In this document: positions 2,339-4,913 of the stretch, piece by piece
How the letters are laid out: the number at the start of each line of letters is the position of its first letter
How positions within the stretch are numbered: position 1 is the stretch's first letter
The notes under the pieces: generated by a model
Databases searched by the model: none
What the model was told of the DNA's origin: nothing
The model's input: only the letters and a program-made list of their open reading frames with translations
Assembly: GCA_029008615.1 (NCBI GenBank)
Contig: JAQXJI010000029.1
Span: 1 to 34,287 of the forward strand
Source: Elusimicrobiota bacterium
Lineage (GTDB): Bacteria > Elusimicrobiota > Elusimicrobia > Elusimicrobiales > Elusimicrobiaceae
DNA length: 34,287 bases
Direction of reading: 5' to 3'
Made by a program: the position numbers and the translations under genes

Positions 2339-2367
2339 TTTCAATAAAAAACAAAATTTGCTATATT
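2339..2367 (+). promoter_or_regulatory. Probable promoter of the portal-protease operon
   Basis: TTTCAA (2339-2344) and TATATT (2362-2367) are 17 bp apart. The predicted transcript starts near 2374, only a few bases before a hairpin that ends in a T-run. Confidence 0.5.
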
Positions 2368-2379
2368 GATTTTGGAGAG

Positions 2380-2405
2380 CCGCTCGTACATTACGGCGGT
2401 TTTTT
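2380..2405 (+). terminator. Promoter-proximal hairpin with T-run (possible attenuator) upstream of the portal gene
   Basis: CCGC-t-CGTA (2380-2388) pairs with TACG-GCGG (2392-2399) around a 3-nt CAT loop with one bulged T. TTTTTT follows at 2400-2405. This looks like an intrinsic terminator, but it sits after the predicted promoter and 24 bases before the portal start codon, not after a gene. It could limit readthrough into the phage genes or only protect the 5' end. Confidence 0.45.
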
Positions 2406-2429: not shown

Positions 2430-3638
2430 ATGAAAATAATACAAAAACTTATCAAAGGCCTTTCCGCAAAAAGCGGAACCGACGCAGGCGCGGCCCTGCC
2501 GTTGTTTATGGAATATTTCTCCCCCCGTTTGGAGGAAACGAAGCTTCCTTCCCCCTCGGGGCACAATTACGCGCCATACGTTGAAGCCTACGGCGAAAAA
2601 GCTTGGGTTTATGCTTGCGTTAACGTCATAGCGGAAACCGTTTCCGCCGCGGATTTCAACCTTAAGGACAAAAACGGACGCATTATTCCCGCCCATCCGG
2701 CCTTAGAGCTTATGTACCGCCCCAACCGTTTTATGAGCGGGCGTTTCTTAAGACAATGGATAACAGCCAGTTTGGAACTTACAGGCAACGCTTATATTTT
2801 GAAAGACTCCGTACGCGGCGACGGAACCCCGGCGGAACTTTTCCCGCTGCTGAGCCAGCTGGTTGAAGTCATCCCCGGGAAAAACCCTCAAAAACCCGTA
2901 CAAGGTTATAAGTACAGAGCAGGCTCCCAAACAGCTTATTACAGGGCGGAGGAAATTATCCACTTTAAATACTTTAATCCGTTTGATTTCTTTTACGGCC
3001 TTTCGCCGATTGCCGCCGCGCGCAAAGCCGTGGAAACTTTGGATAAAGCCGAAGCTTTCAACCGCGCTTTTTTCGACAATGCCGGCACACTTTCCGGCAT
3101 ATTGCAGACGGAAGGACGCTTGGATGATGCTTCCCGCGCAAGGATAATGAAAGCCTGGAACGACAAATACCAAGGCTCGGCAAAAGCGCATAAAGTGGCG
3201 CTTTTGGAAGGCGGACTTAAATGGCAAAACATATCTTTAAGCCAAAGGGATATGGATTTTATATCAGGCATTAAATTGAACAGAGAAACCATACTTTCAA
3301 TATTCCACGTGCCGCCGGCTTTAGTAGGCCTTTTTGATCACGCTCCGCAGTTCAACACCAAAGAACAGCAGCGCATTTTCTGGCAAACGTGCGTTCACCC
3401 GAAACAAACCTTGATATTGGAAACTTTTACAGAATTTCTTTTGCCGGATTTTGACAAAAGCCGCACGCTTTATTTTGACAAAGACGCCAGTTCCGTAGCC
3501 TGCCTGAAAGAGGATTTGCTGGAGCTTGCACAAGCCGCAAAAATTTACGCCGAAATCGGCTATGACAAAACGCAAATAGCCCAAGCTTTAAACCTGCCAT
3601 TTGCAACGGAAAGGGAAAACGCGGGAGGCAAAAAATGA
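2430..3638 (+). CDS. HK97-family phage portal protein
   Basis: This 402-residue protein matches the HK97-type portal family in length and content. Portals form the dodecameric ring at one capsid vertex through which DNA is packaged and which nucleates capsid assembly. Typical stretches are KAWVYACVNVIAETVSA near residues 55-71, an ELTGNAYI segment, the HFKYFNPFDFFYGLSPIAAA region near 185-200, and the conserved KLNRETILSIFHVPPALVGL followed by FNTKEQQRIFWQTC (about 280-320). The reading frame is complete. The start has no good SD. It overlaps the prohead protease by 4 bp (ATGA). No terminase, capsid, head-tail or tail gene lies on either side, so this is an orphan morphogenesis pair: a prophage remnant or a domesticated module. 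Confidence 0.9.
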   Translation: MKIIQKLIKGLSAKSGTDAGAALPLFMEYFSPRLEETKLPSPSGHNYAPYVEAYGEKAWVYACVNVIAETVSAADFNLKDKNGRIIPAHPALELMYRPNRFMSGRFLRQWITASLELTGNAYILKDSVRGDGTPAELFPLLSQLVEVIPGKNPQKPVQGYKYRAGSQTAYYRAEEIIHFKYFNPFDFFYGLSPIAAARKAVETLDKAEAFNRAFFDNAGTLSGILQTEGRLDDASRARIMKAWNDKYQGSAKAHKVALLEGGLKWQNISLSQRDMDFISGIKLNRETILSIFHVPPALVGLFDHAPQFNTKEQQRIFWQTCVHPKQTLILETFTEFLLPDFDKSRTLYFDKDASSVACLKEDLLELAQAAKIYAEIGYDKTQIAQALNLPFATERENAGGKK

Positions 3639-4228
3639 ACGGCATAAAAATCAAAGGTAACATAAAAAACCCGGCTTTTAAAATAGCCTCTCTTGAGCAA
3701 AGCTCGGTAAAAGAGGAAAACGGACTAATTTTTATAGAAGGCTACGCAAATACGAAAAATTCCGCCGACAGATACGGGGATATCCCCTCCGTACTTATCG
3801 GCAAACGGGACTTTGTATATGAACTGTCTGAGTTTAAAAAGAACCCGGTTCTGCTTATAGACCACGTCAACCGTTTGGATCATTTGGCAGGATCGGTAAC
3901 GGAAATTTTTGAGGACAAAAAAGGCCTTTACTTTAAGGCTTTGTTTTCCTCCTCTTCACACCCCACGGTGGCACACGCCAGGAAACTCTATCAGGAAGGT
4001 CACGCAAAAGGAATAAGTATAGCGGGCAGATTCCATTACGAAGACCCTTCCGCCCCCAATAAACTTACTCTTGCGGAAATATACGAAATCAGCCTGGTCG
4101 CCATACCGGCCGATCCCAACAGTTTGGCCGCACTCAGCCCGGAAAATCCCCCGGACGATGAGGCGGAAAACCGCGAAAAATTGATTAACGCCGAAATCAA
4201 CTCTTGGCTTAAAGACCTTAAAAATTAA
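3635..4228 (+). CDS. HK97-family prohead (capsid maturation) protease
   Basis: This 197-residue protein resembles the U35/S78 prohead proteases that clear scaffold and trim the capsid protein after prohead assembly. It shows the family's early segment IEGYANTKNSADRYGDI, a histidine in LLIDHVNRLDHLAG (His77 is the candidate catalytic His), and GISIAGRF, with Ser128 as candidate nucleophile (families usually read LSIGF here), then LAEIYEISLVAIPADPNSLA. It starts inside the end of the portal gene and is closed by a strong terminator, so nothing else belongs to the operon. The expected partner, a major capsid protein, would normally come next but is missing; a secreted-protein gene follows. Confidence 0.88.
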   Translation: MNGIKIKGNIKNPAFKIASLEQSSVKEENGLIFIEGYANTKNSADRYGDIPSVLIGKRDFVYELSEFKKNPVLLIDHVNRLDHLAGSVTEIFEDKKGLYFKALFSSSSHPTVAHARKLYQEGHAKGISIAGRFHYEDPSAPNKLTLAEIYEISLVAIPADPNSLAALSPENPPDDEAENREKLINAEINSWLKDLKN

Positions 4229-4235
4229 CCCCCTC

Positions 4236-4261
4236 CCCCGGCCCAAAAGCCGGGGCTTTTT
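4236..4261 (+). terminator. Rho-independent terminator of the portal-protease operon
   Basis: CCCCGGC (4236-4242) pairs with GCCGGGG (4249-4255) and is followed by CTTTTT. Confidence 0.85.
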
Positions 4262-4310: not shown

Positions 4311-4367
4311 ATTTATGTACGCTTTACGCGCCTTGCGCGCTTAAATTAAAAACGGGAAATGATTTTT

Positions 4368-4913
4368 ATGAAAAATATAATATATGTATTGTCTTTTGCG
4401 GTCTTGGCTTCTTTTTTTGCCCCCGCGCTTAATGCCCAAAGCATTGAGGAAATATCTTATATCCCCGTAAAAAGGGGTAATTACCTTCAGCTTATGGTTA
4501 AGAGAAAAGCCATATTCAGCGGTAATTTGACTGTTACCAACACATTGACGTCAAATTCGACATTCCTAAACTTAAAAACTTCCGGCGATTTGCTCTTAAA
4601 CAATAACCCGCAAATAAACGTGAATCAAAATGTTTTTCTTTCGGGTACAAATCTGAAAATAACCGGCGACGCAAAGGTCTACGGGGATAATATACTTACT
4701 ATGCGCGGCGGAACTTCAACAACGATAAACAGAATAAGCAACAACGGCAATGTAAATGTATACGCCCAAGATATAACCGGCGGCAGCCAGCAAATAACGA
4801 TAAACAACATTTATATAGACGGTATAAATTATCCCAGTAACTGCAATTATACTTGGCTCAGCAATGTTGAAACGGTAGGCGGCGGAAAATATACCGTCTT
4901 GAAATGCAATTAG
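4368..4913 (+). CDS. Secreted Asn/Thr-rich repeat protein of unknown function (possible beta-solenoid)
   Basis: I do not recognise this protein. I prefer the ATG at 4368 (181 residues) to the in-frame ATG at 4359, because the GGGA at 4354-4357 is at usable distance only for the later start and the protein then begins directly with a good signal peptide (MKNIIYVLSFAVLASFFAPALNA). The mature part is rich in Asn, Thr, Ser and Gly with short alternating strands (FSGNLTVTNTLTSNSTFLNL, GNVNVYAQDITGG), which suggests a beta-solenoid or adhesin-like fold. Two Cys near the C-terminus (SNCNYTW and LKCN) could form a closing disulfide. It is monocistronic with its own promoter and terminator. Confidence 0.75.
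   Translation: MKNIIYVLSFAVLASFFAPALNAQSIEEISYIPVKRGNYLQLMVKRKAIFSGNLTVTNTLTSNSTFLNLKTSGDLLLNNNPQINVNQNVFLSGTNLKITGDAKVYGDNILTMRGGTSTTINRISNNGNVNVYAQDITGGSQQITINNIYIDGINYPSNCNYTWLSNVETVGGGKYTVLKCN

Follow-up and report, generated by a model that had tools for sequence, protein, structure and literature searches.

The stretch of DNA analysed here (the window) is a 34,287-bp contig, C29, of a 1.66-Mb Elusimicrobiota genome (G000; 42 contigs, 99.6% complete), in which a two-gene operon among host genes encodes an HK97-type portal protein of 402 aa (positions 2430..3638) and an S78-type prohead (head maturation) protease of 197 aa (3635..4228). Comparison with other Elusimicrobiaceae assemblies, many of gut or rumen origin and labelled here by genus (g1 to g6), indicates that both proteins probably belong to a domesticated siphovirus-like particle of this family, most likely a gene transfer agent (GTA). 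Gene content, intactness, vertical inheritance, purifying selection, dispersal and a leader common to five loci are established. We also favour, with less assurance, the more specific proposal of an Elusimicrobiota GTA whose packaging-and-head operon has been dismantled into five unlinked loci united by one RNA-leader regulon. Of the explanations offered by an earlier note on the window, the separate loci, vertical inheritance and purifying selection speak strongly for a split gene-transfer-agent-like or domesticated particle system; a satellite helper function is not supported.

Morphogenesis genes at separate loci

The earlier note had described the operon as lacking capsid and terminase. 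This is true of the window locus and not of the genome, since a search for capsid, terminase and tail genes recovered all of them at other loci. At least five unlinked loci make up the system in G000, where terS-terL form locus I (contig C40) and portal-protease locus II (C29, the window). Locus III (C22) carries the genes for capsid, head-tail adaptor, head completion, gp10-like neck, tail terminator and major tail proteins, followed by those for a tail chaperone, a short tape measure, a 234-aa tail protein, a 786-aa tail hub, a 95-aa membrane protein and a holin, the labels tail terminator, hub and holin being based mainly on position. An M15 endolysin and a 192-aa membrane protein are encoded at locus IV (C3, near 120 kb), and a 101-aa protein, a 370-aa leucine-rich repeat (LRR)-like fibre and a 62-aa protein at locus V (C3, near 49 kb). 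TerL, portal, protease, capsid, adaptor, major tail and tape measure all show significant similarity to tailed-phage families. The best solved-structure match of the portal is the portal of the Rhodobacter capsulatus GTA (RcGTA; E=6.7e-30), and the capsid likewise matches an RcGTA protein best.

Binning error cannot explain this scatter, because three core loci lie apart in a closed genome (G018; 1,643,562 bp, presumably Elusimicrobium minutum), with portal, terL and capsid at 771, 937 and 1178 kb, and because five loci lie on a single 647-kb contig of G001, at ~171, 205, 362, 428 and 635 kb. In both genomes the loci are spread over more than 400 kb, far above the usual head size.

The family displays several degrees of dispersal. 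In the basal genera g3 and g5, terL-portal-protease-capsid are kept in phage order, although in g5 the remaining cluster begins at the extreme end of another contig and its continuity is presumed. Genus g4 and part of g1 have two loci, portal-protease-terS-terL and capsid-tail. Separation has gone further, with terS-terL detached too, in genus g2 and in the G000 and G002 clades. In derived members as a whole the cluster is split into two to five loci. One genome of the series, G010, carries the unit PilE-ClpP-portal-protease-terS-terL-TPR-glycosyltransferase, which unites the left flank of the G000-clade portal locus with one flank of the terS-terL locus. These joined flanks point to a rearrangement that, judging by gene order, would have occurred between protease and terS. 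Dispersal as a whole would then represent the stepwise splitting of one phage-like operon.

Some components are less readily identified. AlphaFold gave a poor model of the 786-aa hub (mean predicted local distance difference test score 49, four sequences), and its profile found no relative among solved structures. The middle region of the fibre is variable and LRR-like, with a match to Pfam LRR_5 (E = 0.0055) that stays below the family cut-off. The C-terminal part of the fibre is similar to a protein encoded in a podovirus-like prophage region of G022 (C10), a g6 genome devoid of the dispersed system. A small exported protein with a motif of the GREG-x-MM-x-GE type adjoins the capsid in G000, G001, G008 and G017 (L068:2451-3167) and the protease in the closed genome (L074:7977-8528), and is possibly an accessory component.

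Inheritance and selection

Portal orthologues of ~400 aa, 59-87% identical, were found in 18 other Elusimicrobiaceae genomes, the closed genome included. Portal matches outside the family, and prophage-type second copies present in some members, did not exceed 38% identity. The distribution of capsid and TerL orthologues matches that of the portal, and throughout the family the genes of a 16-gene set are present as open frames, as far as the assemblies permit. The earlier note had proposed to judge the operon by the conservation of its genes and neighbours and by the ratio of nonsynonymous to synonymous substitution rates (dN/dS). In five genera, almost every member sampled proved to have intact orthologues, and the neighbours are kept in four species. 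At the window locus these four species have 13-16 flanking host genes in common, and none or few are common between clades.

We computed dN/dS pairwise by the Nei-Gojobori method inside close groups. Values for portal (0.04-0.07) and protease (0.04-0.08) lay far from 1, within a range of 0.04-0.08 for the operon, and were accompanied by 0.05 for capsid and 0.06-0.13 for TerL. Most tail, terS and lysis genes gave about 0.06-0.2, and rpoB 0.03-0.05. In the divergent pair G018-G023, four small measurable genes gave 0.16-0.29.

Trees of portal, terL and capsid were compared with that of rpoB over 11 bipartitions, with random label shuffles as the null. The three trees share 7-9 of the 11 with rpoB and among themselves, compared with a mean of 0.3 and a maximum of 4 for the shuffles, and they recover the rpoB clades.

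The system is missing from some members of the family. None of the g6 genomes listed in the phylum search has an orthologous portal, and in G022, a g6 genome that is 98% complete, orthologous portal, capsid and TerL are all missing. G009 (83% complete) and G013 (69% complete), which form one rpoB clade, have neither portal nor capsid, and the TerL match of G009 is weak. No portal, capsid or TerL orthologue was found in G016 (86% complete). Given its low completeness G013 counts for less, and G022, G009 and G016 are the most telling individual genomes. Since g6 and the G009-G013 clade are both nested within the family in the rpoB tree, the absences look like joint loss of unlinked loci in each of them.

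The window operon and the common leader

The predicted proteins of the operon match Pfam PF04860 (Phage_portal, E=1.5e-72) and PHROG 12 for the portal, and PF04586 (Peptidase_S78, E=1.6e-8) and PHROG 80 (head maturation protease, E=2.5e-18) for the protease. Both frames are intact, lie on the forward strand like the promoter element, leader and terminator described next, and overlap by an ATGA at 3635-3638. Upstream of them lie an extended -10 promoter element, TTTGCTATATT (2357..2367), and a terminator-like 5′ leader (2374..2405) in which a GGAGAGCCG element opens a hairpin ending in a T-run (fold -15.6 kcal/mol, z = -6.0). An intrinsic terminator at 4236..4260, with a hairpin at 4236-4255 (stem of seven G-C pairs) followed by CTTTTT, closes the operon. 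A consensus scan upstream of the portal found no canonical -35/-10 site, and no Rfam family reached its gathering score at the portal leader. The left flank consists of host genes for a pilin, ClpP and an exported protein, the right flank of host genes for an exported protein, a biotin-carboxyl-carrier-like protein and an FtsK-like protein. The left exported-protein gene (1650-2240) was found in the G000 clade only; the right one (4359-4913) has partial matches also in a few further members of the genus. The description in the earlier note of an intact portal and protease, joined by an ATGA overlap and isolated among host genes, is thus borne out by the Pfam and PHROG matches and by the sequence. 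Secreted-protein genes do lie on both sides, and the promoter and strong terminator that it placed around the operon are both present, the promoter being an extended -10 with a hairpin leader and not a canonical -35/-10 site.

The same arrangement recurs at the unlinked loci of this and related genomes. Upstream of portal, terS, capsid and endolysin, an extended -10 is followed by GGGAGAGCCG, which opens a hairpin. The element before terS is identical to that of the portal, and the capsid has the variant TTTGATACATT with a palindrome, TGATACA-TT-TGTATCA. This palindrome overlaps the capsid promoter, is conserved in g1 (L068 ~3261-3279) and was not seen at other loci; it is likely an operator. 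At portal and capsid a T-run comes after the hairpin; at terS the start codon comes directly after it. The hairpins are more stable than those of shuffled sequences at portal, capsid and the fibre module of locus V (z -2.7 to -6.2), and to a varying degree at terS (-1.5 to -4.4).

We scanned 24 whole genomes with a strict pattern, TTTGMTAYATT-N4-20-GAGYCG. Because the leader patterns were drafted after leaders had been seen, their sensitivity is fitted, and their whole-genome specificity is not. Of the 21 matches obtained, 20 precede genes of the system, among them the window portal leader (2357-2382). The remaining one (G000 C6:222983) falls within a coding frame in a different prophage-like region and was taken as chance. 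The reversed pattern gave one match, and nine outgroup genomes gave no strict match. A relaxed pattern had three matches in the closed 1.64-Mb genome, exactly at portal, terS and capsid. Less specific attempts failed: a loose regular expression was not enriched over shuffled sequence (104 versus 137), so only the strict patterns and a profile were taken as evidence. The first patterns, with wrong spacing or too strict, had found no match, and an alignment of mixed leaders yielded no useful consensus structure.

The profile (R1) describes the leader core by sequence only, and its training set comprised no fibre sequences. It matched the window portal leader, itself a training member, at 2355-2384 (E = 3.2e-5), and gave new matches in G006, G007 and G010, all of them upstream of a two-gene module encoding proteins of ~100 aa and ~395 aa. 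Homology search retrieved this fibre module in 11 of the 14 portal-bearing g1 genomes, including that of the window, and in four further genomes checked (G000, G002, G012 and G015) the leader precedes it as well. A low-scoring R1 match, in G002:C11, sits in an apparent non-coding RNA gene. That the leader led to the fibre module without recourse to homology is the strongest evidence that it would mark a functional regulon.

Interpretation, alternatives and parallels

Our best reading is a GTA or, at the minimum, a domesticated particle that packages DNA, with its loci forming one regulon and with DNA transfer and a regulatory function of the leader as presumed properties. One host signal or trans-acting factor would switch on all loci through the common leader, perhaps by allowing RNA polymerase to read through the terminator in it. 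The presence of this terminator suggests conditional read-through, or anti-termination, at the leader, which we put forward tentatively. The proteins would then assemble a short-tailed particle, as suggested by a tape measure of 218-282 aa in g1, g2 and g4 versus 716 aa in G000's own prophage and ~216 residues in RcGTA. The terminase would fill heads with fragments of the host chromosome, since loci hundreds of kilobases apart would presumably not fit into one head. Holin and endolysin would lyse the producer cell, and fibre and hub would deliver the DNA to kin, where import may involve ComEC-type uptake genes. ComEC was found in 25 of 25 genomes searched; because these include relatives devoid of the system, its presence does not discriminate and was not counted as evidence. 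In G005 (C1:59297-60046) the ComEC-like competence gene is apparently broken by several stops, the best match in other genomes being an open frame.

The formal GTA definition lists six features (Kogay et al. 2022, PMC9662315). Three of them are found here: caudoviricete-derived proteins (genes read, particle formation predicted), an endogenised multi-locus genome and mostly vertical inheritance. A fourth, a GTA genome too large to be packaged in full, is strongly suggested by the spacing of the loci, and the other two, packaging of mostly random host DNA and its delivery to other cells, are predicted. Several observations weigh against a GTA controlled as one regulon. No published observation of a particle, of packaged DNA or of transfer was found, and no trans-acting regulator was identified. 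The endolysin hairpin is not convincing (z -1.0), and that of one terS leader is also weak. The capsid-leader alignment has a consensus hairpin and shows no two-sided compensatory changes. Finally, the assemblies compared are mostly metagenomic, with G018 as the one closed single contig.

Other fates of a captured phage have to be weighed against these data. The particle could package DNA or lyse cells and yet serve to kill competitors, as PBSX does, instead of transferring genes. Its gene content is of the PBSX type, with TerL, an HK97 head, a siphovirus-like tail, a holin and an M15 endolysin; this and the fast evolution of its fibre module would suit such a role, and gene transfer is a property that we infer. 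However, PBSX-like elements are known as contiguous prophage-like clusters, whereas the genes here are scattered and each under purifying selection, and a tape measure this short, with inheritance that tracks the host, is reminiscent of GTAs; we regard a killing particle as unlikely. It is very improbable that some structural genes have been recruited to a non-particle function such as a tail-only device or a compartment. Separate loci could indeed play separate roles, but the genes for terminase, portal, protease, capsid, neck and tail are retained together, have the leader in common and are missing together.

A split but selfish prophage, or remnants maintained by repeated phage infection, would be consistent with the existence of free phages and prophages that are related to the system. 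The best-matching portal of a free phage is nevertheless a 694-aa frame, 45% identical, versus 59-87% identity and ~400 aa within the family. A single head would presumably not package all the loci, and the trees follow rpoB. A functional prophage would be contiguous and have integration and replication genes; the loci examined carry only structural, packaging, fibre and lysis genes among host genes. The 13-16 flanking host genes common to four species already contradict this explanation, to which we assign hardly any probability. Prophage debris and a recent deletion product, both named in the earlier note, would fit the window locus taken alone, with its two phage genes. Given the low dN/dS of both genes, their intactness in nearly all relatives of five genera, the same neighbours in four species and the gene trees, this origin was rejected and its probability is practically nil.

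The GTA or domesticated particle thus preferred has partial parallels. RcGTA, the alphaproteobacterial type I agent, likewise combines an HK97-type portal and capsid, several loci, vertical inheritance and a small peptidase, with a tape measure of similar length, as noted above. Similarity is nonetheless only of the distant HK97-family kind and does not amount to orthology of the two systems. The head-tail genes of RcGTA form one cluster, whereas in Elusimicrobiaceae, from another phylum, packaging and head genes are split over three loci, with a hairpin leader in common and a fibre module at a locus of its own. In the Caulobacter crescentus agent (CcGTA), under GafYZ control, anti-termination past terminators is an experimentally established control layer (PMC11150451). 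Co-activation of unlinked GTA genes would be common to both systems, the mechanism at the Elusimicrobiaceae loci being conjectural; the terminator-like hairpin lies in the 5′ leader of most loci here and after the first gene in CcGTA. No GafYZ homologue was identified in Elusimicrobiaceae, where no search aimed at one was made. The Faecalibacterium agent (FpGTA) offers a recent two-locus parallel from another gut anaerobe, with operons ~125 kb apart, head and packaging genes in one and fibre and lysis genes in the other (PMC12946183). It differs in being podovirus-like, in having two operons and in belonging to Bacillota, and particles and packaged DNA have been shown there experimentally, whereas for the present system they are predicted.

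Known GTAs have a TerS with no detectable DNA-binding domain, a trait outside the formal definition (PMC11841831). No Pfam domain was detected in TerS here, nor in phage TerS. The structure model retains a helix-turn-helix-like three-helix head, and the best fold matches, non-significant, are phage small terminases. In these respects the modelled TerS would differ from the usual GTA picture, and some packaging preference is possible.

Among phages, the free siphovirus-like contigs IMGVR_UViG_3300022868_000068 and relatives (L130-L133) have the order terS-terL-portal-protease-capsid-adaptor-neck-tail and include the portal at 45% identity. They differ in being contiguous, with DNA-metabolism and methylase genes upstream, a 694-aa portal, and a longer major tail protein and tape measure. 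G000 itself has a contiguous siphovirus-like prophage region (C39 ~22-50 kb; L069, L070), homologous in order from terS to hub to the dispersed system. With a portal of 698 aa and a tape measure of 716 aa it is a distant homologue and not the source of the dispersed genes. Another prophage-like region (G000:C6 ~213-229 kb, L233), encoding a 2838-aa protein, is apparently unrelated.

Few lineages have yielded GTAs whose genes are known, and the route from phage to GTA is mostly guesswork. A literature search that excluded subscription papers and preprints found no GTA report for Elusimicrobiota. The system is real and conserved, is not debris, and is a new GTA-like one; its morphogenesis genes are dispersed to an unusually complete degree and have a leader in common, and gene transfer we infer. 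One family preserves intermediate stages, from one cluster to two, three and more loci, and if the proposal is correct these would trace along the phylogeny how an intact phage-like cluster became fully dispersed, all modules having in common a new switch of the leader or anti-termination type. The control element is short enough for testing and specific enough to reveal new parts. Particle production and DNA transfer are directly testable in the closed-genome member with its three core loci, and genus g6, the apparent loser of the system, provides a natural comparison. If the proposal holds, gut Elusimicrobiaceae would possess a route of gene exchange that belongs to the host.
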